Part shown: piece by piece, positions 541 to 41,393 of the stretch
Layout of the letters: every line of letters begins with the position of its first letter
How positions within the stretch are numbered: the stretch's first letter is position 1
Source: Gammaproteobacteria bacterium
GTDB lineage: Bacteria; Pseudomonadota; Gammaproteobacteria; Pseudomonadales; Litorivicinaceae
Length of the DNA: 41,393 bases
Direction of reading: 5' to 3'
Assembly: GCA_002714245.1 (NCBI GenBank)
Contig: PAWX01000012.1
Span: forward strand, 1 to 41,393
Program-made: the position numbers and the translations under genes
The notes under the pieces: generated by a model
What the model saw: the letters and a program-made list of their open reading frames with translations, nothing else
What the model was told of the DNA's origin: nothing
Database searches by the model: none

Positions 541-620
541 ATAAATACAAGGGCTTCAGGCCTACAGAGGGTTCTCAGTGTGTAACGCATTTTGCGGAAA
601 AAATTACACAGGAGAACATC

Positions 621-1634
621 ATGGAAACACCGAAACGGGTCTACTGGCATCGTAATCAGTGGCATTACAGACCGACCCTGGCAGAGAGAGAACGGGGCCT
701 TAAGGCGTGGGAACCGTTAGGCACTGATCTGGGCAAGGCTCGAGACAAACTACGTCGGCTGCGTCTGATCGAACAGGAAGAAGACAGCACTGACACGTTC
801 GTCTGGTTAGCGAATTGGTATATGACGAAGGTCGCCCCAGATCGACTCTCAAAACGTACCATTGGTGATCGGATGGGATGCCTTCGGCAGCTCTTCAAAA
901 CCTTTGCGAATCGCAAGTACTAAGACATCGAGCCGCATGAAATTCAGCAACACATCATGGATCGAGCGAAGGTCGCACCGAGGCGTGCGAAGATGGAATA
1001 CACGACCATTCAGCAGATCTATCGTTGGGCAATCCGTTTTGGGCTTGCAGATAGGAATCCTGCTTCTGATTTATGGACGCCGCCACAGCGCCCCAGGGAC
1101 CGTTATATAACCCATGAAGAGCTACAGACGTTCTGTCACTTAAATCCCGAGTGGGGCGCTCCTATGGCGCTCCTGGGCTATGCCTTGGGTCAGAGGCTCG
1201 GAGATATTCTCGCGTTGACTTACAACGACAAGCAGCTGGTGTTTAAAACACAAAAAACGAGGAAGAGGGCGGCAATTGATATGACGCCATATTTGAGGAG
1301 CTTGATCGAGCAGATCAATCCAGGGATCGAAGCTGGGGAGTTAACCGTGAAGAATGCCAACGGACAGGAGTACGACCGGCACGCCTTCGGTCATCGGTGG
1401 AGGCGTTGCATGGATCGGTTCGTTAAGGCGGGTGGGGAACGGTTCACGTTCCACGATTTGAAGGAGAAATTTGTGACGGACTCGCAGACACTAGGACTAG
1501 ATCCGGTGAAGCAGGCGCTGCACGATTCCCCGAAGACTACACAGATCTATCTCAGGAATCGCGAGACTACCAAGGTTGAGTCGTTACGGTTGGAATCCAG
1601 TAACGTCATCATCGGGGCCTTCGCCGAAGGGTAG
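621..1634 (+). pseudogene. Tyrosine recombinase/phage integrase interrupted by an in-frame TAA (921-923)
   Basis: ORFs 621..923 and 957..1634 share a frame; read-through gives ...FKTFANRKY*DIEPHEIQQHIMDRAKVAPRRAKMEYTTIQQIYRWA.... Catalytic-type motifs: GQRLGDILALTY, FTFHDLKEKF, TTQIYLRNRE. Starts 80 bp after tRNA-Asp, same strand. Confidence 0.8.
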
Positions 1635-1907
1635 GGACGCAGACAAGGACTGCAGCGCGTCTGTGAGAGGGGCCGCTGCCAACGAAGCATTATATCTGGA
1701 AGGGTTCAGGGAATATTATCAGGGTGATTTGGGTGATCAGATTATCTGGTTGCAGCCTGAGCTGAACTTCACTTAATCGGTTTCTCGGTCAGAAAAAAGC
1801 AGTCCTTTTGTATCTAAAAAGTTTGTGGCTGCATGCCCTAAATCACCCAAACAAAGTAGATTTCGCCAGGAATTGAGCGGTTAGTCCAACAGGTATATCT
1901 TTAGAGT

Positions 1908-4076
1908 ATGAAACGGATTCGTAACATCTTCTCAGTTTTGCTGTTGGGCATTAGCCTGATGATGGTTTCTGCCCCGGGTTTCAGTGCTGACTTCCAGAAA
2001 GGTCTAGATGCTTACAATCTTGGAGACTATCAAGCGGCTTTACGAGAGTGGAGACCTTTGGCTAAGCAGGGTAATGCTGATGCACAAAACAATCTTGGCA
2101 GGATGTACAAAGATGGTCGTGGCGTAGCGCAGAGTCATACTGAGGCGGTGAAGTGGTTTCGCAAGTCTGCTGAGCAGGGTAATGCTGATGCACAAAACAA
2201 TCTTGGCAGGATGTACGAAGATGGTCGTGGCGCAGCGCAGAGTCATACTGAGGCGGTGAAGTGGTTTCGCAAGTCTGCTGAGCAGGGTCGTGCCGCCGGA
2301 CAAAACAGCCTTGGCTGGATGTACGATCACGGTCTTGGTGTTGCGCAGAGTCATACTGAGGCGGTGCAGTGGTATCGCAAAGCTGCTGAGCAGGATAATG
2401 CTGATGCACAAACCAACCTTGGCTGGATGTACGAACATGGTCGTGGCGTAGCGCAGAGTCATACTGAGGCGTTGCAGTGGTATCGCAAAGCTGCTGAGCA
2501 GGGTGATGCTACAGGACAACGCTACCTTGGCCGGATGTACCGATGGGGTCGTGGTGTTGTGCAGAGTCTTACTGAAGCAGTGAAGTGGTATCGCAAAGCT
2601 GCTGAGCAGGGTGATGCTACAGCACTACGCCACCTTGGCTGGATGTACGACGCAGGTCTTGGTGTTGCGCAGAGTGATACAGAGATGGTGAAGTGGTATC
2701 GCAAGGCTGCTGAGCAGGGTGATCGGATTGCACAAAACAGCCTCGGCTTAATTTTCGAACACGGTCGTGGTGTTACCCAAAGTTATACTGAGGCGGTGAA
2801 GTGGTATCGCAAGTCTGCTGAGCAGGGTGATGAATGGTCACAAAATCGATTAAAGAAAATGGGGATCGACTGGACTAAGCGCCAGATCGCAAAGGTTGAA
2901 CCAAAGGCAGTCAAACCAGCTAATCAAGTGAATGCCGATGAGTCGGAACGGGTCAAGGAATTAGAAAAACGCCTGGCACTCCTTGAAGCACAAACCAAAC
3001 AAACTGAACAAGCTATCGCTTCTGACACACAACCACCTTCACTGCGAATTCTTGGCAAATATACTGAAGACGAAAGTGGAGTTTTTGAGGGCTCAGTGAC
3101 TGATAACGTTGAGGTCGCTGAACTTCTAGTAAATGGCCGACCCATTGCATTTGACAGCTCTGGTCGTTTTACTCACAAAGAGTATCTCCCGTTGGGAGGT
3201 TCAGAGTTAACCATCGTTGCGATTGATCGAGCAGGACTGAAGTCTACGGAGACGGTCCGCTTGAACCGAGAAGCTCCGAAACAAATTGCAAAAGTTTCGT
3301 TTGATAGTCTCAACCCAACCACTCGTTACGTTAAATCCAACGGTAACGCCATTGCTCTCGTCGTTGGTGTTGCCGACTACGAGAAAACTACTGGAGCTGA
3401 ATATGCCGATCGCGATGCTCAGGTTTTCTATGACTACGCCAGACTGAAACTCGGTATTCCAAAAGAACGTATCCAGATGCTCATCAATGACAAGGCTGAT
3501 GTGGTCGGTATGCTTTCTGGCATCAACAAGTGGCTCAAACGCTCTGTGAAGCAGGGACAGAGCGATGTGTACATCTTCTTCGCTGGACACGGCCTTGCTT
3601 CCGATGACGGGGATACGGCCTACCTGATCCCCTACGACGGGGCTCCTGACTTCCTCGAGAGAACCGCAATATCCCGTGATGAAGTCTTCCTGGAGGTTTC
3701 GTCGGTGAATCCCCGTTCTGTGACTGTATTCCTCGATACCTGCTACTCCGGTGATACCCGTGGAGAAACTCGTTTGATTGACGGGAGACCCCTCAACATT
3801 AAGCTACAGGAGCAAAGCCTACCCGAGGGCTTTACGGTCCTCACAGCCGCTGGGGGCGACCAGATCGCCAAACCGCTGAAGGAAGCTCAACACGGAATGT
3901 TCTCGTACTTCCTGATGAAGGGTATGGAAGGGGATGCCGATAGCAATTACGATAACGCTATTACGGCTAGGGAACTTCATGCGTTCGTGAAACAAAACGT
4001 GATCCAGCAAAGCGGTGGCTCACAGGTTCCTGAGTTACAAGGGGATGCGGAACGGGTATTGGTACGGTTTAGATGA
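1908..4076 (+). CDS. Secreted Sel1-repeat protein with C-terminal caspase-like (peptidase C14) domain
   Basis: Signal peptide MKRIRNIFSVLLLGISLMMVSAPGFSA; about 8 Sel1-type repeats (AEQGNADAQNNLGRMYEDGRG); coiled coil; Ig-like segment; caspase-fold motifs IFFAGHG and VFLDTCYSG. Confidence 0.9.
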   Translation: MKRIRNIFSVLLLGISLMMVSAPGFSADFQKGLDAYNLGDYQAALREWRPLAKQGNADAQNNLGRMYKDGRGVAQSHTEAVKWFRKSAEQGNADAQNNLGRMYEDGRGAAQSHTEAVKWFRKSAEQGRAAGQNSLGWMYDHGLGVAQSHTEAVQWYRKAAEQDNADAQTNLGWMYEHGRGVAQSHTEALQWYRKAAEQGDATGQRYLGRMYRWGRGVVQSLTEAVKWYRKAAEQGDATALRHLGWMYDAGLGVAQSDTEMVKWYRKAAEQGDRIAQNSLGLIFEHGRGVTQSYTEAVKWYRKSAEQGDEWSQNRLKKMGIDWTKRQIAKVEPKAVKPANQVNADESERVKELEKRLALLEAQTKQTEQAIASDTQPPSLRILGKYTEDESGVFEGSVTDNVEVAELLVNGRPIAFDSSGRFTHKEYLPLGGSELTIVAIDRAGLKSTETVRLNREAPKQIAKVSFDSLNPTTRYVKSNGNAIALVVGVADYEKTTGAEYADRDAQVFYDYARLKLGIPKERIQMLINDKADVVGMLSGINKWLKRSVKQGQSDVYIFFAGHGLASDDGDTAYLIPYDGAPDFLERTAISRDEVFLEVSSVNPRSVTVFLDTCYSGDTRGETRLIDGRPLNIKLQEQSLPEGFTVLTAAGGDQIAKPLKEAQHGMFSYFLMKGMEGDADSNYDNAITARELHAFVKQNVIQQSGGSQVPELQGDAERVLVRFR
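2070..2840 (+). repeat. Tandem 108-bp Sel1 coding repeats
   Basis: Near-identical units, e.g. starting at 2070 and 2178 (ggtaatgctgatgcacaaaacaatcttggcaggatgtac...), spaced exactly 108 bp. Confidence 0.85.
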
Positions 4077-4083
4077 GAAAAGT

Positions 4084-4113
4084 AATCCCGCACTAAGCGT
4101 TTCGGGATTTTTT
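4084..4113 (+). terminator. Rho-independent-type terminator after the first caspase gene
   Basis: aatcccg-cactaagcgttt-cgggatt followed by tttt, 8 bp after the TGA stop. Confidence 0.75.
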
Positions 4114-4333
4114 GTCTATATTGTCTTCTGCTGTTAGCTGTTAGCTGTTGCGCAGGGGCGCAATTACACCATCTGTATGACAATTTGTGGGATTGGTGGT
4201 CAACAATGATAAAAGCTATCAATCAAATCAGAATTGTTTGTTTAATATACGGAGGTCTCTTTTTCCGCCGCCCGTTCAATAAAAACAGGCAATATGGCCA
4301 GTTTTTTATTTTTACCCGTTTTAAAACCACTTT

Positions 4334-6997
4334 TTAAATCGTAATTGGCTGATCTTTGCACTCGTCCATCAAAAATAGCTCAAATTGGTCTACTCCCGGG
4401 GCTGTGTAGAGACGTTCCTTGTCTTTTTCTCGTGGCTGTACCCAAACAGATTTTAGGAGTATCCAATCACCGTAGGAATTTGTGGCGAATAAGCTGTACC
4501 AAGTCTCGAGTATTCGGCTCGAATGTCGGTCGTCACACGAATTTTCTGGTCCAGTGTATATCAAGACCCCGTCAGCGGGGCTTTTGGGTGCATGAAATCG
4601 GTTCCTTACTAGGCTGACTTCCATGTTATCTGCACTCAGGTTCCAGTTAATGTGTGTGGAGCTCTCGAGTAGCTCTGCTTGCAATTTTTCGCAAATAATG
4701 TCCTGCGATAATCGTTGCGCAGTTGTATATGCAATTGAAAGAGAAACATCTTTTAAATTGTGAGCCCAAATTACTCGGGTATCCGTTATGCTGTTGCTGT
4801 CCGGAGAAGTAATTTGAAGAATCAACTTGAGTGAATCACTAGACCCAACAAGTGACTCGATATAGCTCAAGCCCTGCTCGTCAAAACGGAATATATGACT
4901 ATTTTGAATAATCAGATCCTGATCCGAAACTTCGTACCCAACAAACGACTTCTTTTCGCGAACTTTGACGCTTTCATAGGAATCAATTGATGTGTTGACG
5001 GCCTCAATAGAAAAGCGAAGATCGTGGGAATCCCTCAGTACCGAGAAATTAGTCAAGGTTAGTTGTGCTTCTGTGAGAATCGTACCAGTGGGAATGGCTC
5101 CAAGGTCGAAGTGAAGGCCACCGTATTGCTTATCACCTTGCTCGTCAAAACCTACTGAAAGATCTCCTTCGGACAATCTTTGTCGACTGATCGTTGCGAT
5201 CCGGGATGGATTTAGCGAGACTTCTTGTGGTTTATTGTAATAAGCAATCGTGAAATTTGGCCGGAAGTTTGTTCCACCCCCAAAAGGGCCGTCGCCAATG
5301 TCAAACTGGATAATTTGGCTACTTTCGCCGGTCGGTAGGTCGACCGGTCCCTCAACCCGAATGGCAATAAATCCCTTGGTCGCCACGGCAGTCAATTCAA
5401 CTAAATCAGATTTGTCTAATATCCATCGCTGCCATATTCCTTGGGTCATTGCATCTGAATGAATGGCCGGGCTTCTGGTGAGAACTTTTGCATCACTCAG
5501 TCTTGAATACTCGTAAATATCTGAGGGCTCACTCAATTCAACGAGACTTAAGCGCCACTCTCCAAAGTTTTCGATCGTCGCATTCACCCGGTTCATGGGA
5601 TAGATAGAAAATTGAGCGTCTGTAATTACAGCACTGTCAGCAATAATTGAGGCATCGAGCACGATGCCTCCGATACATTGGCCGTGCAATTTGCTCGCAC
5701 CGACAAACATCGAATACGTCCCAAAATGATCGTAATTCACGGGTCTGATTTTTTTGCAGGTTGTGCCAGCAAAGCCACGCTCAGGTGTAAGTGTGCACAA
5801 TCGGATCATTGGTCGGGTTCTTGTTCGTACCTTTACCTGAGGAGCGAATGGGCCTCGTCGCCCGGTACTGGTCTCTCGCGCTCTTACTTGGTAAAAGTAC
5901 AGGGTGTGCTGTTTGAGCGGATGGTCGAGAAAGCGATTGCTTCGAGTTTCTGCAATTAAGGTCGACGAGTCTGCCGCGAACTTGTGCTGTTCCGACCTGT
6001 AAATCTCAAAGACGACGTGTCTGTCGCTCGGATAATCCCAAGCTAATTGAATTTGGTCAAAACCAACCGCGAAAGGGGTGAATGATTCAGGACGAAGAGG
6101 TGAATTGGGTGCATGTGCTTTCGTCGTCTCCCAAGCCGTAATCAGGGCTGGGACATGTTCTAAAATGCTATGGCGCATTACTTTCATGTAATCGGGAATA
6201 TTGCGGCTACCGACTTCAACAACTGTCGAGAGAATACCTTTTGAAAAATAAAATTCTCTTGCGCTTCCATGCACCATGTTCGACGGAGGTCGGCCTCGGT
6301 GGATACCATAACTACGGCCTGTCACTTGATGAATTTTCTTTGCCATGTCTGCGCAAAGTGTATTGATATCAGTGCTTTCGATTTCAGCCTCATGGCGTCC
6401 ACGATGAGCCGGAAAAAAGACATTTCCTTGGGAATGGTAATCGAGTGCAATCGTGATATTAGGATGTGATTCGACAAATTGTGCCAGCGCATTCGATTCT
6501 GGCTCTGATAGCGGATGAGGGCCACCGTAAGTGTTCGAATTGGTATCAGTAGATTCTCGAAAGAACACTGGGAAATTTCGATTAAGGTCTACACCATAGC
6601 TTCCATCGCCATTATCACGTCGATTTTTCCTCCAAAACGAATAGTGTTTCCAAGAGTATTCAAATCCATCCGGATTGACACATGGGACGATGTAGAGTGC
6701 TGATGTTTTGAGTAAGTTGCGTATTTTAGGGTCAAAATCTAGACGTGATGTTACGTACTGCATGAAATAGGATAATAGCTCCACCCCGATCCACTCCCGA
6801 GCATGCATTGTTCCTTGTATTAAGATCGCTGGTAACTGGTCAGCCTTAACCTCGGGGTCGCTGAGTGTGACCGCATATAGTGGTCGTTGCTCGCAGCTTT
6901 TCCCAATGATTTCTATCGACACGTATTGAGGATAATGACTAACTAGCTCCTCGAGCAACGCTTCCAAGCGACTGAATGATAGATAACTAGACTTCAC
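4334..6997 (-). CDS. M14 zinc carboxypeptidase with FN3-like segment and long C-terminal beta-rich extension
   Basis: QGTMHAREWIG (HxxE), VPCVNPDGFEYSW, GVDLNRNFP, DYHSQGN and STVVEVGSRN are M14 motifs; about 550 aa follow the catalytic domain. Confidence 0.85.
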   Translation of the reverse strand: MKSSYLSFSRLEALLEELVSHYPQYVSIEIIGKSCEQRPLYAVTLSDPEVKADQLPAILIQGTMHAREWIGVELLSYFMQYVTSRLDFDPKIRNLLKTSALYIVPCVNPDGFEYSWKHYSFWRKNRRDNGDGSYGVDLNRNFPVFFRESTDTNSNTYGGPHPLSEPESNALAQFVESHPNITIALDYHSQGNVFFPAHRGRHEAEIESTDINTLCADMAKKIHQVTGRSYGIHRGRPPSNMVHGSAREFYFSKGILSTVVEVGSRNIPDYMKVMRHSILEHVPALITAWETTKAHAPNSPLRPESFTPFAVGFDQIQLAWDYPSDRHVVFEIYRSEQHKFAADSSTLIAETRSNRFLDHPLKQHTLYFYQVRARETSTGRRGPFAPQVKVRTRTRPMIRLCTLTPERGFAGTTCKKIRPVNYDHFGTYSMFVGASKLHGQCIGGIVLDASIIADSAVITDAQFSIYPMNRVNATIENFGEWRLSLVELSEPSDIYEYSRLSDAKVLTRSPAIHSDAMTQGIWQRWILDKSDLVELTAVATKGFIAIRVEGPVDLPTGESSQIIQFDIGDGPFGGGTNFRPNFTIAYYNKPQEVSLNPSRIATISRQRLSEGDLSVGFDEQGDKQYGGLHFDLGAIPTGTILTEAQLTLTNFSVLRDSHDLRFSIEAVNTSIDSYESVKVREKKSFVGYEVSDQDLIIQNSHIFRFDEQGLSYIESLVGSSDSLKLILQITSPDSNSITDTRVIWAHNLKDVSLSIAYTTAQRLSQDIICEKLQAELLESSTHINWNLSADNMEVSLVRNRFHAPKSPADGVLIYTGPENSCDDRHSSRILETWYSLFATNSYGDWILLKSVWVQPREKDKERLYTAPGVDQFELFLMDECKDQPITI

Positions 6998-33097: not shown

Positions 33098-33174
33098 GGT
33101 GGGTGTAGCTCAGTTGGTAGAGCCCCGGATTGTGATTCCGGTCGTCGTGGGTTCGAGTCCCATCATCCACCCCA
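33098..33174 (+). tRNA. tRNA-His (anticodon GTG)
   Basis: G-1 opposite C73, GTGGGTG/CATCCAC acceptor, anticodon loop TTGTGAT, encoded CCA. Confidence 0.95.
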
Positions 33175-33429
33175 TTAACTACTAGTTGTCCATAAACAGT
33201 GACTTATAGGTCCAATGATTGCTCATGTATGAACTTTGTATGAAGTATTTGAGAGCAAATCAATTCCTCCACCCCAACCCTGTGCAAGGGCCACCCCGGG
33301 TATCCCCTAAATCTACACTCAATCACACCCGCAATTTTATTTTTCCGGATTTTGGGTTTTGGCAGGGTTGCCCCAGAGGATAGGCGGGAAGGGTAGTTAT
33401 AGGTGTGTGGATGCGTGTATTGTTTAGGG

Positions 33430-33528
33430 ATGGAACAGAATTATTTGTGTAGAGCTATCCTGATCTTCTCTGCGGGAGCCAAGACCCCGACGATGTTGGG
33501 TGATGCGGGTAGGTGGGTGTTGTGGTGA
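33430..33528 (+). pseudogene. 32-aa ORF whose last 20 residues match the C-terminus of the caspase proteins (3' remnant or coupled leader)
   Basis: Translated by eye: MEQNYLCRAILIFSAGAKTPTMLGDAGRWVLW*; compare GRFSAGAQTPTMLGDAGRWVLR* at the end of 36104..37810. Confidence 0.75.
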
Positions 33529-36107
33529 AACGCGGATATTTCGGTCTCTTCGTTTTCCTGCTGCACGCAAGTGCGCTTTTAGTTCCCGTATCTACATGGG
33601 CCGCAGATTACCAAAAAGGGAAAGAAGCCTACATTCGAGGTGATTACGACTCAGCGCTTCGAGAATGGGGTCCTTTGAGTGATGCGGGTCACCCTCAAGC
33701 CCAAGTGGGGTTTGGTCTCATGCATGAACATGGTCTCGGAGTCGAACAAAATCTTACTGAGGCTGCGAGATGGTATCGGTTGGCGGCTGAGCAGGGTCAT
33801 GCTAGCGGACAAAAAAATCTAGGGACTATGTATGAGTTTGGCCGTGGAGTTGAAAAAAATCTCAAGGAGGCTGTGAGATGGTATCGATTGGCGGCTGAGC
33901 AGGGTCTTGCTAGTGGACAAAAAAATCTAGGGACCATGTATGAGTTTGGGAGAGGAGTTCAACGAAGTCTTACTGAGGCTGTGAGATGGTATCGGTTGGC
34001 GGCTGAGCAAGGCTATGCAGAAGGACAAACGAGTCTCGGTGTGATGTATGACAATGGGGCTGGGATCGATCAAAGTGTTACGGAAGCTATCAGGTGGTAT
34101 CGATTGGCGGCTGAGCAAGGTCATGCTCGAGCTCAAGTAAATCTTGGTAAGAGTTATGAGTTTGGTGACGGAGTTCAACGAAGTCTTACTGAAGCAGTGA
34201 GTTGGTATCGATTGGCGGCTGAGCAAGGCCATGCGGAGGGACAAACGAGTCTTGGCGTTATGTATGCAAATGGTGCCGGGGTCGATCAAAGTTCCAAGGA
34301 GGCCGTGAGGTTGTTTCGATTGGCAGCTGAGCAAGGTCATGCTCGAGCTCAACATAGTCTTGGTAAGAGTTATGAGTTTGGTGACGGAGTTCAACGGAGT
34401 CTTACTGAGGCAGTGAGTTGGTATCGATTGGCGGCTGAGCAAGGCCATGCGGAGGGACAAACGAGTCTTGGCGTTATGTATGAAAATGGTACCGGAGTCG
34501 ATCAAAGTGTTGCGGAAGCCTTGCGGTGGTATCGATTGGCGGCTGGGCAAGGTCATGCTCGAGCTCAAGTTAATCTCGGTTTAAGTTATGAGTTTGGTGA
34601 CGGAGTTCAACGAAGTCTTACTGAAGCAGTAAGTTGGTATCGATTGGCGGCTGAGCAAGGCCATGCTGAGGGACAAACGAGTCTTGGCGTAATGTATGCA
34701 AATGGTGCCGGGGTCGATCAAAGTTCCAAAGAGGCCGCGAGGTTGTTTCGATTGGCAGCTGAGCAAGGTCATGACCGAGCACAAAATTATCTTGGCCTGA
34801 TCTATGAGTCTGGTAGCGGGGTCACGGAAAGCCTCCAAAAGGCCATCAAGTGGTATCGATTGGCTGCGAATCAAGGTAACGAATCAGCAATAGATCGGTT
34901 AAAAGAACTTGATCGTGGTTGGACTGCGGGGCAGGGAGATAAGGAATCACCTAGAACGGTCAATCAATCGATTGAAACCGACAAGGAACTCGAAGAACTA
35001 AGACAGCGCCTTGCGCTTCTCGAAGCCCAGAGTAAACAAACTATTCAGGCTATTGCCTCAGATAACACCCCACCAACTATCCGTATTACGAGTCTGAATG
35101 TTGAGGGCTTGCGAGCTAGTATTTCCGCTGAAGTGACAGATAATTTGTCAGTTGGTGAGGTTACCCTGAATGGCTCATTGCCAAAGCAAATTAATGGCTC
35201 AACATATTTCTGGGAAACTTTTATCCCATCGGAGGGTCTCCCGGTCCTGATCGAAGCGGTTGATCAGAATGGTCTTATGGCCCGTAAATCGACTCGAATT
35301 GAGCGCGAGAAATCGACGGAGACAGTCACTCGGCTTGCCGCTCTTAATCCCCTAGTTGGCCCCAAGCAAAAGCCCTCCCGTGATCGTGCCGCCCTTATCA
35401 TCGGTCTCGAGCAATATGCCGACGCGCCGCCGGCTGACTATGCGTCGCGCGATGCCCAGATGTTCGCTGACTACGCCCGCGAGAAGCTCGGTATCGCTCC
35501 GGGGAATATCAAGGTGCTCATGGACACAGAAGCGACCCGTAGTGGTCTGTTACGTGCCCTGAAGGTTTGGTTACCTCAAGCTGTGCAGCCAAATAAAACA
35601 GACCTTTATGTATTTTATGCGGGTCACGGCATGGCATCTGATGACGGAGAATCTGCATATATCGTTCCTTACGGTGCAGACACATTCTTGCTTGAGGATA
35701 CGGCTATCTCGCGGGAACGCTTCTATGAGGAGATTGGAGCCGCTAAGCCACGTATAGCGACTTTCTTCTTCGACAACTGTTATGCAGGGACGACTCGATC
35801 GGAGGAACGCCTTCTTGCGCAGAGGCCCTTGAGTATCAAAGTGCAGGAGTCACCTGTACCCGACAACTACCTTGTCTTCACCGCCGGTGAATCCAATCAA
35901 ACTGCCGGAGTCCTCGATGAGGTGAAGCACGGGAGGTTCTCGTACTTTCTTTTCAAAGGTCTTGAGGGAGAAGCAGACGGCAACTCAGATGGGAAGATCA
36001 GTGCAGGTGAGCTGCATGCCTATGTGAAGCAATCTGTAGGGAGATTCTCAGCGGGTGCCCAGACTCCGACGATGCTCGGTGATGCGGATAGGTGGGTGTT
36101 AAGGTGA
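33525..36107 (+). CDS. Secreted Sel1-repeat protein with C-terminal caspase-like domain (GTG start at 33525 preferred over 33513)
   Basis: MKRGYFGLFVFLLHASALLVPVSTWAADYQKG signal peptide; about 12 Sel1-type repeats; coiled coil; caspase motifs VFYAGHG and FFDNCYAG. Confidence 0.9.
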   Translation: MKRGYFGLFVFLLHASALLVPVSTWAADYQKGKEAYIRGDYDSALREWGPLSDAGHPQAQVGFGLMHEHGLGVEQNLTEAARWYRLAAEQGHASGQKNLGTMYEFGRGVEKNLKEAVRWYRLAAEQGLASGQKNLGTMYEFGRGVQRSLTEAVRWYRLAAEQGYAEGQTSLGVMYDNGAGIDQSVTEAIRWYRLAAEQGHARAQVNLGKSYEFGDGVQRSLTEAVSWYRLAAEQGHAEGQTSLGVMYANGAGVDQSSKEAVRLFRLAAEQGHARAQHSLGKSYEFGDGVQRSLTEAVSWYRLAAEQGHAEGQTSLGVMYENGTGVDQSVAEALRWYRLAAGQGHARAQVNLGLSYEFGDGVQRSLTEAVSWYRLAAEQGHAEGQTSLGVMYANGAGVDQSSKEAARLFRLAAEQGHDRAQNYLGLIYESGSGVTESLQKAIKWYRLAANQGNESAIDRLKELDRGWTAGQGDKESPRTVNQSIETDKELEELRQRLALLEAQSKQTIQAIASDNTPPTIRITSLNVEGLRASISAEVTDNLSVGEVTLNGSLPKQINGSTYFWETFIPSEGLPVLIEAVDQNGLMARKSTRIEREKSTETVTRLAALNPLVGPKQKPSRDRAALIIGLEQYADAPPADYASRDAQMFADYAREKLGIAPGNIKVLMDTEATRSGLLRALKVWLPQAVQPNKTDLYVFYAGHGMASDDGESAYIVPYGADTFLLEDTAISRERFYEEIGAAKPRIATFFFDNCYAGTTRSEERLLAQRPLSIKVQESPVPDNYLVFTAGESNQTAGVLDEVKHGRFSYFLFKGLEGEADGNSDGKISAGELHAYVKQSVGRFSAGAQTPTMLGDADRWVLR
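33936..34799 (+). repeat. 216-bp higher-order tandem repeat (two Sel1 units each), four copies
   Basis: SYEFGDGVQRSLTEAVSWYRLAAEQGHAEGQTSLGV begins at 34152, 34368 and 34584 (exact 216-bp spacing), with a diverged copy from 33936. Confidence 0.85.
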
Positions 36108-37810
36108 GAGCACCTAATTGCGTCTTTTGGGGTGTTTTGTGCTATGCAATCATAAGTGGATGCTCGACGACACCCGAAATGATCCGAAAAGGTGATGTCC
36201 AGCTTGGAATGTCGCTCACGGATTTCAATAATACGATGTACTGGGGTACGTGGGCGGAGAGTGATCCCGGGCAGGTGTCTTGGGGTGGAAGTGGTTACGA
36301 TCGCTACTTTCAGGATCACTTAATAGTTTACGGCGGTGACAGAGAAAGAATTTTCATTTTTGATAATAGATCTGTTCTTGTGGCCATTACAGAAAGTATT
36401 GAGGAAGCTAAGAAACTTATCCTCAGGGCGCGCGCTACTAGCTCTAGTATCCAAAACCTGCAGGCTAAACCTGCGACGCGACCGTCTCGCGCGCCTGACC
36501 TGAGTGGTTTGGATTCGGATACGCGGTCGTCGATTGGAGTTGCTTGCGTTACGGCGAAATCCGAAGGGCCGGCAAGATATTACGAGTGCGTGAATGCACA
36601 GTTAGCCTCAATCGGATTGAATACGAACCAAGTTGCTTCAGGTGAGCCCAAAAAGATTTCTCAGCAACAAGTCAATCAAGACTCCGAGCGTGTAAAAGCT
36701 TTAGAGCAACGTCTGGCTAAACTTGAAGCAGAGAAAAACACCAAGCAACAAGCTATCGCTCAAGATACTCAAAACCCGGTCATTCGAATAATTAAGGTAA
36801 CCTCCGACGATGCCAAAGGAGTCATTTCGGGTGTAGCAACTGACAATACCGGTGTGGCTGAAATCCGAGTCGATGGCGAGGTAGTTCCAAGTGACCGTTC
36901 CGGACGCTTTACTTCAAATATTTTTATCCCTTTTGAAGGTAAATCTGTGGAGGTTGTTGCCTATGATTTGAATGGGCTCTCAACTACTGAAACTATGCGT
37001 TTGGAGCGCTCAAAGCGCACCCAACAAGGCAGCCGGCTTGCCGCTGTAAATCCTCTTATAGGACCAAAACAGAAGCCATCCCGTGACCGTGCAGCCCTCA
37101 TCATCGGCCTCGAGAAGTATGCACGGGCACCGACAGCAGACTTCGCCGCTCGTGACGCTCAAATGTTCGCCGATTATGCTCGAGAGAAGCTCGGCGTCCC
37201 CAACAACAACATCAAGGTTTTGACTGATTCTGAGGCTGAAGAGACGGCCATTCTTCGTGCCCTCAAGGTCTGGCTACCTAAAGCCGTTAAGCCCGACACA
37301 ACCGACCTGTACGTCTTTTACGCAGGACATGGAATGCCCACCGCAGATGGTACCTCTGCCTACCTCGTCCCCTACGATGGCGACATCCAGTTGCTTGAGG
37401 ATACGGCTATCTCCCGTAAACGTTTCTTCGACGAGATTAGTGCCTCGAAACCACGCTCAGCAACCTTCTTCTTCGACAACTGCTACTCCGGGGCAACTCG
37501 ATCCGAGCAACAGTTACTCGCCGCCCGTCCTTTAACGATTAAGGTTGAAGAGACTGAAGTCCCGGACAACTACCTCGTCTTTACGGCTGGTGAGACAGAC
37601 CAGATTGCTGGGGTAGAACTAGAGGTTAAGCACGGAAGGTTCTCCTACTTCGTCTTTAAGGGCTTAGAAGGGGAAGCGGATGCCAACTTGGATGGGAAGA
37701 TCAGTGCGGGAGAACTCCACCAATACGTAAGGGAGTCCGTAGGGCGATTCTCAGCAGGTGCCCAGACCCCGACAATGCTCGGTGATGCGGGTAGGTGGGT
37801 GTTGCGGTAG
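36104..37810 (+). CDS. Lipoprotein with BamE/SmpA-like N-terminal segment and C-terminal caspase-like domain
   Basis: GTG at 36104 overlaps the upstream TGA (GTGA); lipobox AIISGC; caspase motifs VFYAGHG and FFDNCYSG; C-terminal EF-hand-like DANLDGKISAGE. Confidence 0.88.
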   Translation: MRAPNCVFWGVLCYAIISGCSTTPEMIRKGDVQLGMSLTDFNNTMYWGTWAESDPGQVSWGGSGYDRYFQDHLIVYGGDRERIFIFDNRSVLVAITESIEEAKKLILRARATSSSIQNLQAKPATRPSRAPDLSGLDSDTRSSIGVACVTAKSEGPARYYECVNAQLASIGLNTNQVASGEPKKISQQQVNQDSERVKALEQRLAKLEAEKNTKQQAIAQDTQNPVIRIIKVTSDDAKGVISGVATDNTGVAEIRVDGEVVPSDRSGRFTSNIFIPFEGKSVEVVAYDLNGLSTTETMRLERSKRTQQGSRLAAVNPLIGPKQKPSRDRAALIIGLEKYARAPTADFAARDAQMFADYAREKLGVPNNNIKVLTDSEAEETAILRALKVWLPKAVKPDTTDLYVFYAGHGMPTADGTSAYLVPYDGDIQLLEDTAISRKRFFDEISASKPRSATFFFDNCYSGATRSEQQLLAARPLTIKVEETEVPDNYLVFTAGETDQIAGVELEVKHGRFSYFVFKGLEGEADANLDGKISAGELHQYVRESVGRFSAGAQTPTMLGDAGRWVLR

Positions 37811-37911
37811 TCCTCGTTGTCATTAATAGTGCTACTTTCGGATCACGAACAGAGGTATGTATCCCGAATGGATAGACTGGTGAGCTCGATTGTCGAGTAA
37901 TGGATGATTGA

Positions 37912-38898
37912 ATGAAACAGAAGCTAGTCTTAATAACTCAACCGGTACTCTTTACATGTATTTTTGTAATGAATTTGATAGGTTGCGGTGACGTCAAAGT
38001 TGTTGATGCACAGTCTACATTTGCAAAAGCTGACCCACTTAACGAGATAGTGGCCGTCAGCGCCGACCATGATAGGTTGGATAACATCGGTTGTTTGAAG
38101 ATCAAAAATGTGATTTCAGAAACCCATGTATTGCTTTCCGATGAGGACCCACAGGTATTCAAAAATGCGCTGAGAGCGCACTTGGCGCCCCTAAATTATC
38201 CTGTAGAAAAGAAATGTGGTAATTCGATTCAATTGATGGTCAATGAGTACAAGGTGCATGACTTAGTAGTGGCATCTCGTTTGATCATCGATATACACGG
38301 GTCCATCCAAGATGCCGCTGATAATGAGATCTGGTCTGCACAATATCGATTGACAGAAAATGCTGGAAACGTCCCTTTGGATCCAATTTCTGCGGGACTT
38401 GGCATGGCTTCATCGGTGCAGAATACTTCAGAAGATGCTAGACACAATGGCATCTACCTTGCGGTGAGGCGTTTATTGAGGGCGCTACCAGAGCATCAAG
38501 GGTTAGATGTCCCTATTATGGCGACAGAAATCCCAGGGCAAATTTCTAAAACAGAAACGACCAACACGGAAAAGCCCAAAACACTTGCAGATGCCTTAAA
38601 TCTCTGGGACAAAAAAAATTATGGTGACGCGCTAGAAATCATGGAAGGGTTATACCGGGCGAACCCAAGACCCGGCAACGGTTATCAGTTCGGTTTGATG
38701 CTTGAGGCAATGGGTGATCTCGACGAGGCGGCAAATGTGTATGCTGATACTGCAGTGGCTCAGGCTGAAATCCGTCAACCTGTAGCGGCATTGAGAACGT
38801 TACGCCGATTACAGCGGCTGAATGAGGCCAACAAGGAACGGCACAACCCACAGTTGAATCGTGCTGTTCAAGCCATCTCGGAAGTGCTGAAAAATTAA
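37912..38898 (+). CDS. Lipoprotein with C-terminal TPR-like region
   Basis: Signal/lipobox VMNLIGC; C-terminal LADALNLWDKKNYGDALEIMEGLYRANPRPGNGYQFGLMLEAMGDLDEAANVYADTA resembles TPR helices. Confidence 0.7.
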   Translation: MKQKLVLITQPVLFTCIFVMNLIGCGDVKVVDAQSTFAKADPLNEIVAVSADHDRLDNIGCLKIKNVISETHVLLSDEDPQVFKNALRAHLAPLNYPVEKKCGNSIQLMVNEYKVHDLVVASRLIIDIHGSIQDAADNEIWSAQYRLTENAGNVPLDPISAGLGMASSVQNTSEDARHNGIYLAVRRLLRALPEHQGLDVPIMATEIPGQISKTETTNTEKPKTLADALNLWDKKNYGDALEIMEGLYRANPRPGNGYQFGLMLEAMGDLDEAANVYADTAVAQAEIRQPVAALRTLRRLQRLNEANKERHNPQLNRAVQAISEVLKN

Positions 38899-39509
38899 CT
38901 TTTTTTCAAACGTTCGACCTCGGCTTCGAGTTCTTTGAACGCGTCGTTTTTGCGTGCTTCTTGCGCCAGCGCAGCATCTTTTTGTATCTGTATAACTAGT
39001 GCACGGTTTGCATCGCCAATTGGATACTCAATTAGAGCATAGGCTGTGACCTTACTTCCAGTCGCTGCAAATTTAACCTCTTTCACTTTGAGGCCCCTAA
39101 GGTTGGTTTCCGCGACAACTGTTTTGATTGCTTGCTCAACTTTGTCTGAATTACCTGTTGCGTCAAATGTGGATTCGTCAAACCAAACCTTGGTGGATTG
39201 TGAGAGGCGCGAATCAAGATTTTCTGCTATCTGTGCTTGGGCCTTAACGATGGCTGCACGACGGGCAGTACTCATGTCGGAATGTGTTGATGATCCTACA
39301 CCGTAAATAGCAAGATCAGACTCCGGAGGTATCTTTGCCCAGTCAGGTAGTGCATCAATTTTTGCTTGATTTATTTCTTGTGCTTTTTCTTCTTTCTTCT
39401 GTTGGATCAATGCCACGGACTCCGGTGATCCCGGTTTTGGTTGATTTACGCATCCACTTAGAATCAAGGTCGTCGTGAGCATGACCACGATAATATTTAC
39501 TATCTTCAT
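38895..39509 (-). CDS. LPP20-family-like lipoprotein
   Basis: Lipobox LILSGC; PDWAKIPPESDLAIYGVGSSTHSDMSTARRAAIVKAQAQIAENLDSRLSQ resembles LPP20/FlgP-type lipoproteins. Confidence 0.7.
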   Translation of the reverse strand: MKIVNIIVVMLTTTLILSGCVNQPKPGSPESVALIQQKKEEKAQEINQAKIDALPDWAKIPPESDLAIYGVGSSTHSDMSTARRAAIVKAQAQIAENLDSRLSQSTKVWFDESTFDATGNSDKVEQAIKTVVAETNLRGLKVKEVKFAATGSKVTAYALIEYPIGDANRALVIQIQKDAALAQEARKNDAFKELEAEVERLKKS

Positions 39510-40339
39510 ATTGAACCTCCTATGATTCGATAACTCATTTTATCCTGTGTCCATAGATCTCTTCTGAAGCTTTGAAGCCAAGAAAAAAATCCTGATTCTG
39601 AGATAGTTTCTGGCACATCCTTCAGCGGTTCCTTAAATGATAGGAGAATCAGATATTCGCGTGAAACGGTTGAATCTTGCGGGAGTGTAACATCTAGATT
39701 ATAAGTTGTTACCGCTTCGGCGCTTGGTATAGTTAACTGCTGCGATGCCATGGATTGTTTGTCAACGGCATTGGGGAATATTCGATAATAATTATCGCGA
39801 TCATGATAGGGTGCCCAATAAAAGACATAATGATATGCCGCCTTATTGCTTTTTATCCTAATCTGCGGCTGGTCCCCTACCCGAAGGATTAATCCTTCCG
39901 CGAGGTCTACCTTGGTTTGAAAAGAAGCGTCAGCCTTACCCGCAAACTCTTCAATAATGACCGTCCCCTTAACCTTACAAATATTCGCTTTTTGCAGCTC
40001 TGAGAAATATGGAGTCGATCGGAAGTCGGTTCCTTTTATATATCCATTGGAGTTAATTAACGACCATGAGCTCTCAAAAAGCTCACAGTCATTCCCGGTG
40101 GCTTTCTGGATTGATGCGTCGCATTCAAGCAATGATTTTTGGCCGATCAGCTCTCCAAAATGTTTTATGAGCGCATCCTTTTTCGCTTTTGATGCGGCTA
40201 ATTCACACGCCTGAGCTTGGGTTTCATTCGGACCCCATGCATGTTCACCAGAAGCAGATATTTCGAATGTTGAAACCGCGAAAGCTTTATTGAGGAGTAA
40301 CCACCAGACCACAATATTGAGCGCAAACTTATTCATCAA
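39506..40339 (-). CDS. Exported DUF4384-like protein
   Basis: Signal peptide MMNKFALNIVVWWLLLNKAFA; EGLILRVGDQPQIRIKSNKAAYHYVFYWAPYHDRDNYYRIFPNAVDKQSMASQQLTIPSAE matches the DUF4384 pattern. Confidence 0.65.
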   Translation of the reverse strand: MMNKFALNIVVWWLLLNKAFAVSTFEISASGEHAWGPNETQAQACELAASKAKKDALIKHFGELIGQKSLLECDASIQKATGNDCELFESSWSLINSNGYIKGTDFRSTPYFSELQKANICKVKGTVIIEEFAGKADASFQTKVDLAEGLILRVGDQPQIRIKSNKAAYHYVFYWAPYHDRDNYYRIFPNAVDKQSMASQQLTIPSAEAVTTYNLDVTLPQDSTVSREYLILLSFKEPLKDVPETISESGFFSWLQSFRRDLWTQDKMSYRIIGGSI

Positions 40340-41393
40340 TAGCTACAACCAAAACAACTTTTGAGCGGAGTGAACTGTAAGCATCTCTCGCACTCATAAT
40401 GGGCCTTGCATCTGAGGTTGGCGAGTGTTTAAAGCCTAAGAATCTGCGCCCCTCTTTGCCTTGAATTCCGATATTGATATCTTCTGGAATTGAGTTGTTT
40501 TCTTTCAGGAATTTGGTTTTATCGAGTTTAGCGACAGCTATACCTAGCACTCGTCCATCGACAGAAAAAATTGGTCCGCCTGAGTTTCCTTGATTCAAGT
40601 TTGCTGTGATTAGAAATTCCGACGCCTCATTTCGAAAGCCAGCCTCTTTACTCACAATCCCCTCGGTGATTGATGGATGATGTGCGCCAAGGACATCGGC
40701 CAATGGGTACCCCATCAAGAACAGTTCGTCTCCGCCGACAGGATCGATGATATCTGCAGGCGGTATGGCCTGACTGGCTGGGAATGGCTCGTGTAGAATT
40801 AAAAGAGCAATATCTTGATCTTTATCCAAATAAAATTCTTTGACGTATCGGACTTTTCCGAGGCCATCGCGCACAACCGCGCGGTCAGCCCTCTCAATCA
40901 CGTGTCGGTTGGTGATGATCCATTGCCCATTGTTCGTGATAAACCCACTCCCAGTGAAGATATCTCCCTCGGTTTCAATATTAATGGGCTCGATCTCAAT
41001 CTCGTTATTCTGGCTAGCAGGCGTGAGTCCGGGGCCCGGCAGGTTGTCGCGCTTTAACTTAGGCTCTTCCCGTTGAATTTCTGCCTTTGGTGAAGAGGCA
41101 CTTGAATCATTTTCTGGTTTCGACGGTGGTGGACGCTTCGCGAATTTCTTATGGATCTTTAGCCAGCGCCCGATTCTGTTGGCAGAAATGGTATTTCCTT
41201 CAGCGCGGAAGAGTGCCTGAGCATCTTGGAATAAACGATGCGCGTCATAGGGGTCTCCTCCCAGAAAAGCAAATCGGCCACGGTATTCAGTCATGATCCC
41301 AGTATCGCCTAACTCGATATAGGCTCGGTCTGCTAATTCTGTATTGTTTGGATCAAATCGAAGCGCTTGCTCAAGGTATGCAAGCCATACAGA
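40329..41393 (-). CDS. Trypsin-like serine protease, 5' end beyond the window
   Basis: GSGFITNNGQWIITNRHVIERA (His), DKDQDIALLIL (Asp), NLNQGNSGGPIFSVDGRVLGIAVAK (Ser). The frame stays open past the listed ATG (41294) to the window edge: SVWLAYLEQALRFDPNNTELADRAYIELGDTGIMTEYRGRF. Confidence 0.88.
   Translation of the reverse strand, partial: SVWLAYLEQALRFDPNNTELADRAYIELGDTGIMTEYRGRFAFLGGDPYDAHRLFQDAQALFRAEGNTISANRIGRWLKIHKKFAKRPPPSKPENDSSASSPKAEIQREEPKLKRDNLPGPGLTPASQNNEIEIEPINIETEGDIFTGSGFITNNGQWIITNRHVIERADRAVVRDGLGKVRYVKEFYLDKDQDIALLILHEPFPASQAIPPADIIDPVGGDELFLMGYPLADVLGAHHPSITEGIVSKEAGFRNEASEFLITANLNQGNSGGPIFSVDGRVLGIAVAKLDKTKFLKENNSIPEDINIGIQGKEGRRFLGFKHSPTSDARPIMSARDAYSSLRSKVVLVVAIDE

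Follow-up and report, generated by a model that had tools for sequence, protein, structure and literature searches.

The locus described here raises the question of whether two caspase-fold genes and the trypsin-like protease operon facing them form a unit, and what such a unit might do if its products leave the cytoplasm. The window, by which we mean the whole stretch of 41,393 nucleotides that was analyzed, comes from the draft genome of a marine gammaproteobacterium, of which Litoricola sp. M30B64 and isolate NP1444 are named relatives. Our preferred reading, to which we would give a probability of about 0.5, is that a mobile islet at a tRNA-His gene encodes an envelope protease module. The original prediction had named the six genes, and we could confirm all of them: two C14 caspases, a lipoprotein (LPX), and the genes for an LPP20-like protein, a DUF4384 protein and a trypsin-like protease. 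It had missed the Sel1 repeats of caspase 1, caspase 3 (1908-4076) and a caspase remnant (33436-33528), as well as two properties of the locus: that the set is a mobile tRNA-His islet, and that its caspases are members of a family that is multi-copy and dispersed.

Composition of the gene set and predicted location of its products

The features discussed are these:

957..1634, + strand: piece of a tyrosine recombinase beside caspase 3, with an in-frame stop (~921) upstream
1908..4076, + strand: caspase 3, with signal peptide, Sel1 repeats, Ig-like domain and C14 domain, at a tRNA Val/Asp site
33155..33177, + strand: left attachment-type repeat, the tRNA-His 3' end plus 3 nt (GAGTCCCATCATCCACCCCATTA)
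33178..41393, continuing to ~42058 beyond the window: islet after tRNA-His
33436..33528, + strand: remnant left from the 3' end of an upstream caspase gene that has been deleted
33513..36107, + strand: caspase 1, 864 aa, with signal peptide, 11 Sel1 repeats, Ig-like domain and C14 domain
33737..34814, + strand: 108-bp tandem repeat, 10 copies, coding for the Sel1 repeats of caspase 1
36092..37810, + strand: caspase 2, 572 aa, with lipoprotein signal, Ig-like domain and C14 domain
37912..38898, + strand: lipoprotein LPX, modeled with a PelC/GNA1162-like domain and C-terminal TPR-like helices
38895..39509, - strand: LPP20-family-like lipoprotein, lipobox LSGC
39506..40339, - strand: DUF4384 protein (Pfam score), predicted to be exported by a signal peptide
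40329..41393, - strand, the 5' part running to ~41885 past the window: TPR and trypsin-like protease (HtrA-type, without PDZ), predicted to be exported
~42036-42058, outside the window (L034:12037-12059): right copy of the repeat, 21/23 identical

Two adjacent caspase-fold genes with a signal peptide or lipobox had been predicted, and both are borne out: caspase 1 matches Peptidase_C14 with 50.9 bits (2e-13) and caspase 2 with 45.3 bits (1e-11), against a cut-off of 21.4, and inspection of their N-termini gave a type I signal peptide (...VSTWA/A) and the lipobox IISGC, respectively. The Sel1 repeats of caspase 1 are matched by Pfam at 1e-107; NCBIfam matches to MerG, ExoR and MotX fall below cut-off and were rejected as cross-matches of these repeats. 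The Ig-like domains of the caspases have sub-threshold matches to Pfam Ig-type families, and a PDB sequence search with caspase 2 gave no match. The catalytic residues H413 and C464 are invariant in 13/13 members of the caspase family, as are D355 and D462, which may be the acidic S1 pocket residues of the metacaspase type and would then predict specificity for Arg/Lys.

The protein encoded after the caspases had been called a TPR-like lipoprotein, and this description stands, with a lipobox (LIGC, by inspection) and a weak C-terminal TPR match (0.0056, in a homologue). Using a moderate-confidence model (mean pLDDT 65), a fold search placed the N-terminal half of LPX with PelC (E 8.8e-6, TM 0.68), and the fold neighbors of the model core are PelC, GNA1162, FlgT and CsgG; in the model, LPX has a PelC-like domain together with TPR. 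PelC, GNA1162, FlgT and CsgG are outer-membrane or periplasmic assembly proteins.

The facing genes likewise agree with the kinds proposed. The full protease gene, followed on the contig past the window, encodes 518 aa with a signal peptide, matches Trypsin_2 at 1e-22 and has DegS/HtrA1 as its best sequence matches. Its N-terminal part consists of TPR-like helices, its His-Asp-Ser triad is kept in 3/3 members, and no PDZ match was found, the residues after the protease domain being too few for one. Both the trypsin triad and the caspase dyad are therefore unbroken in the set. The DUF4384 protein scores 30.5 bits against a Pfam cut-off of 27, all three of its homologues match as well, and a PDB sequence search with it returned nothing. 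The LPP20-like protein has no Pfam LPP20 (PF02169) match of its own and is assigned through its homologues only, two of three of which match (best 3.4e-5), its AlphaFold model being too poor for a fold search; sub-threshold Pfam matches to a phage capsid protein and an esterase were rejected. LPP20-type proteins belong with the FlgP/FlgT fold group (PMC12222027).

By inspection, all six proteins, the full-length protease included, begin with a signal peptide or lipobox, in agreement with the proposal that the components are exported or lipid-anchored. Export and lipidation are here predictions from N-termini read by eye and from a simple pattern script, and on these an envelope location of the module proteins is well supported. 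The caspases and lipoprotein form one gene group and the protease, DUF4384 and LPP20-like genes another; the two are convergent and do not make a single operon, and scans for sigma-70 promoters gave no match.

A tRNA-His islet and its inheritance

Its ends and its flanks show that the whole gene set is one ~8.9-kb mobile islet integrated in tRNA-His. The right 23-bp repeat lies ~150 bp past the protease start, just beyond the last gene, and the match score of the repeats was reached by 0/300 random sequences. In the sister genomes G005 and G012 the tRNA-His site is empty, with a small gene followed by tRNA-Leu-tig-clpP-clpX; in an alignment to the unoccupied G005 site, the left flank of the islet shows identity until a few nucleotides beyond the tRNA end, and the right flank resumes at the repeat. 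There is no integrase reading frame within the islet, and the nearest one, beside caspase 3, is broken: it is probably a pseudogene, given the in-frame stop upstream, and has no relative within the genus. Other relatives carry different cargo between tRNA-His and tRNA-Leu, which by inspection of N-termini looks metabolic or repair-related.

This interval (L164-L174) is an insertion hotspot, and in G015 it holds what appears, from N-termini only, to be an Lhr-type helicase/ligase set. A second tRNA-adjacent insertion (Val/Asp) lies at 541-4334 of the window, where the broken tyrosine recombinase stands with caspase 3 and the homology of the flank to relatives ends at the tRNA-Asp end.

A related complete module with extra caspases follows tRNA-Asn in the Litoricola genome G020, at a site that is empty in G001, G005 and G009, and in G012 the module adjoins tRNA-Gly, at a site unoccupied in the window. 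Caspase or lipoprotein genes are also found near tRNA-Lys, tRNA-Ala and tRNA-Leu in G004, G019 and G015, making seven loci near a tRNA in total, while several other loci are cut by contig ends. At Val/Asp, Asn, Lys and Gly, repeats of the tRNA end did not reach significance. Two further traces were seen: G020 has two tRNA-Asp genes ~1.1 kb apart (L179:470-1723), which suggests a past integration, and in G019 a caspase gene is separated from tRNA-Ala by an inverted partial copy of this tRNA (L029:2008-2051).

Of 58 genomes, exactly three (G000, G012 and G020) have the protease, DUF4384 and LPP20-like genes at full strength, always beside caspases and the lipoprotein; the three species keep the gene set at three sites and in two different gene orders. 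LPX is found in the same three genomes and, alone, in G015; only caspases are present in G004 and G019, drafts with a completeness of 60 and 72%, and caspases without the partner genes also stand at other tRNA sites. Values of dN/dS are 0.14 for the protease, 0.09 for the DUF4384 protein, 0.09 for the LPP20-like protein, 0.26 for the lipoprotein and 0.05-0.13 for the caspases, which indicates purifying selection on every gene tested.

Caspase arrays and exported caspases across the class

The caspases of these genomes are a dispersed multi-copy family, to which caspase 3 also belongs. Directly upstream of caspase 1, the remnant preserves ~29 codons from the end of a caspase gene that was lost, and its stop overlaps a possible GTG start of caspase 1 as GTGA, an arrangement repeated between the caspase 1 stop and the caspase 2 GTG; the starts in question are possibly an in-frame GTG at 33525 and a GTG at 36104. 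Since similar GTGA-like junctions follow caspase genes in G020 and G019, the caspases form tandem arrays, probably coupled in translation, with gain and loss of copies. The caspase tree, in which some joins are on long branches, contains at least two caspase types common to different species. Shuffling of N-terminal cassettes was therefore rejected, tandem duplication and deletion being the simpler account. One caspase-1-type gene in G020, in a long-contig assembly, is broken into several reading frames (L022:11295-14247), through either decay or sequencing error.

Across 274 genomes of the Gammaproteobacteria, 24 of the 37 DUF4384 sites have a C14 caspase site no more than 10 kb away, where 0.56 would be expected, and 21 genomes have both DUF4384 and C14, against 5.2 expected; the caspase counts are lower bounds, as the first-look search with PF00656 missed the caspases of the window itself. 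No close match to the DUF4384 protein of the islet was found in the 273 other genomes of the class. Neighbors at several of the class-wide sites include OmpA, FlgO, CsgG/FlgT/LpoB, peptidoglycan-binding and autotransporter proteins. With export signals, by the simple pattern script, on 17 of the 21 uncut caspase genes sampled, exported caspases beside DUF4384 appear to be a broad theme in the class. The original prediction of a recurrent extracytoplasmic module with two protease classes, for which the absence of co-occurrence would have been damaging, is supported by the trio in 3/58 genomes, by this linkage and by the export signals. It had also contrasted the locus with cytoplasmic caspase effectors, and the contrast holds for the characterized systems but not for the family, since most sampled caspase genes of the class carry export signals and caspase export is not unusual.

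Related arrangements were seen elsewhere. L132:6078-11239 encodes a caspase, a zinc-finger anti-sigma-like protein and an exported FlgT_N-like/DUF4384 protein of 276 aa, the size of the window protein. In four loci of other gammaproteobacteria (L114, L115, L116 and L117) a caspase of ~860-900 aa adjoins a Ser/Thr kinase-like protein with a C-terminal DUF4384; three of the four caspases have a lipoprotein signal, and the kinase is identified by Pfam in L117.

Known systems and possible functions

A close precedent is provided by alphaproteobacterial QC pseudo-orthocaspases, in which trypsin, p20 and DUF4384 are joined in one chain (Klemencic et al., 2019; PMC6426788), a fusion that argues for the three domains acting together. 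The same domains thus occur together and the trypsin triad is intact, but in those proteins the caspase His is replaced by Gln, so that with the QC dyad the caspase domain may not be catalytic, whereas the islet encodes separate, predictedly exported proteins with the His kept, two extra lipoproteins and a mobile setting. Prokaryotic metacaspases are known with Sel1 in 6%, and with an N-terminal helix and Sel1/TPR (Asplund-Samuelsson et al., 2012; PMC3501461); the part of that survey drawn on here also reports possible signal peptides and operons with up to three metacaspases, as in the islet, but describes neither a trypsin–DUF4384–LPP20 module nor a tRNA-integrated islet. The Canu caspase-nuclease defense (PMC12799240) resembles the islet in its Ig-like caspase, in TPR proteins of related loci and in its mobile or hotspot settings, but combines an MBL-fold pro-nuclease with an Ig-like fold at the C-terminus, where the islet has no nuclease, an N-terminal Ig-like domain and export signals throughout. 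The gasdermin gene of the caspase/trypsin–gasdermin systems is absent from the islet, which has no further gene. The envelope proteases HtrA/DegS share the periplasmic trypsin-like domain, but the islet protease lacks PDZ and has N-terminal TPR-like helices; PelC, the GNA1162/CsgG lipoproteins and FlgP/LPP20/FlgT are probably alike in lipoprotein fold and LPP20-like family, but LPX stands outside Pel, curli and flagellar loci and is fused to TPR-like helices. The domain partners and exported metacaspases have been described before, but the literature searched contained no module that is encoded by separate genes, bears lipoproteins and is integrated at a tRNA.

We infer that LPX, with its PelC-like domain and TPR, would form a scaffold beneath the outer membrane together with the LPP20-like lipoprotein and the DUF4384 protein. 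The caspases would be held there by lipid or by their Sel1/Ig domains, and would share substrates with the HtrA-like protease and its TPR. Most likely, an envelope disturbance would lead one protease to license the other through limited cleavage, and the caspases would then cut envelope proteins after Arg/Lys. The PelC-like fold, the HtrA-like TPR protease, the caspase anchors and the trypsin–p20–DUF4384 fusions all point to such an outer-membrane-anchored complex; the convergent gene groups, the QC dyad of the fusions, the poor LPP20-like model and the pLDDT of 65 for the lipoprotein model count against it, and the caspases may act independently of their partners, as they are also found elsewhere without them.

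The main rivals are defense and surface-protein processing. Characterized defense caspases act in the cytoplasm, which weighs against the proposal of an envelope-located defense module. In this reading, which we rate as unlikely, the lipoproteins and the N-terminal parts of the caspases would detect adsorbing phage, incoming DNA or a competitor's toxin, and the proteases would then kill the cell, arrest it or cleave the receptor. PADLOC gave domain-level matches only (RT-Protease, LmuA, caspase) and no system, the islet lacks a nuclease, a pore and a nucleotide sensor, other cargo at the same tRNA-His site looks metabolic or repair-like by its N-termini, and no relative was found in viral contigs. 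A sporadic, mobile distribution at tRNA hotspots with changing cargo would nevertheless suit defense, as would multi-copy caspases with varied N-termini, and caspases and trypsin-like proteases are known defense effectors (PMC12799240).

We consider it unlikely that a PelC/LPP20-type ring in the outer membrane aids the export of a surface protein or polymer that the two proteases then trim. The fold neighbors of the lipoprotein (PelC, GNA1162, FlgT, CsgG), the rings formed by FlgP, which is of the LPP20 fold (PMC12222027), and the autotransporter, OmpA and CsgG proteins near caspases across the class are consistent with this, but the islet encodes neither a barrel nor a polymer synthase, and no exported substrate is obvious in it. 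That unrelated genes merely gathered at a tRNA hotspot, the caspases and the convergent protease operon acting apart, would fit the convergent operons, the caspases alone at other tRNAs and the lipoprotein alone in G015, but is very unlikely because the same set recurs in three species, three sites and two gene orders with purifying selection on all genes, and DUF4384 and caspases are linked class-wide.

For the envelope protease module, a bolder version, which we hold to be quite improbable, is a mobile, tRNA-targeted, outer-membrane-anchored immune or death switch, in which a lipoprotein ring would sense attack from outside and the HtrA-like protease would activate the extracytoplasmic caspases. 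The known bacterial caspase systems have been worked out in the cytoplasm, while most sampled caspases of the class carry export signals and many have DUF4384 and outer-membrane proteins as neighbors. A mobile module that is compact and has all its parts offers a tractable entry to the role of extracytoplasmic caspases, and its separate proteins make the trypsin–p20–DUF4384 link testable. If the envelope switch were real, the verdict would be reached in the periplasm and not in the cytoplasm.
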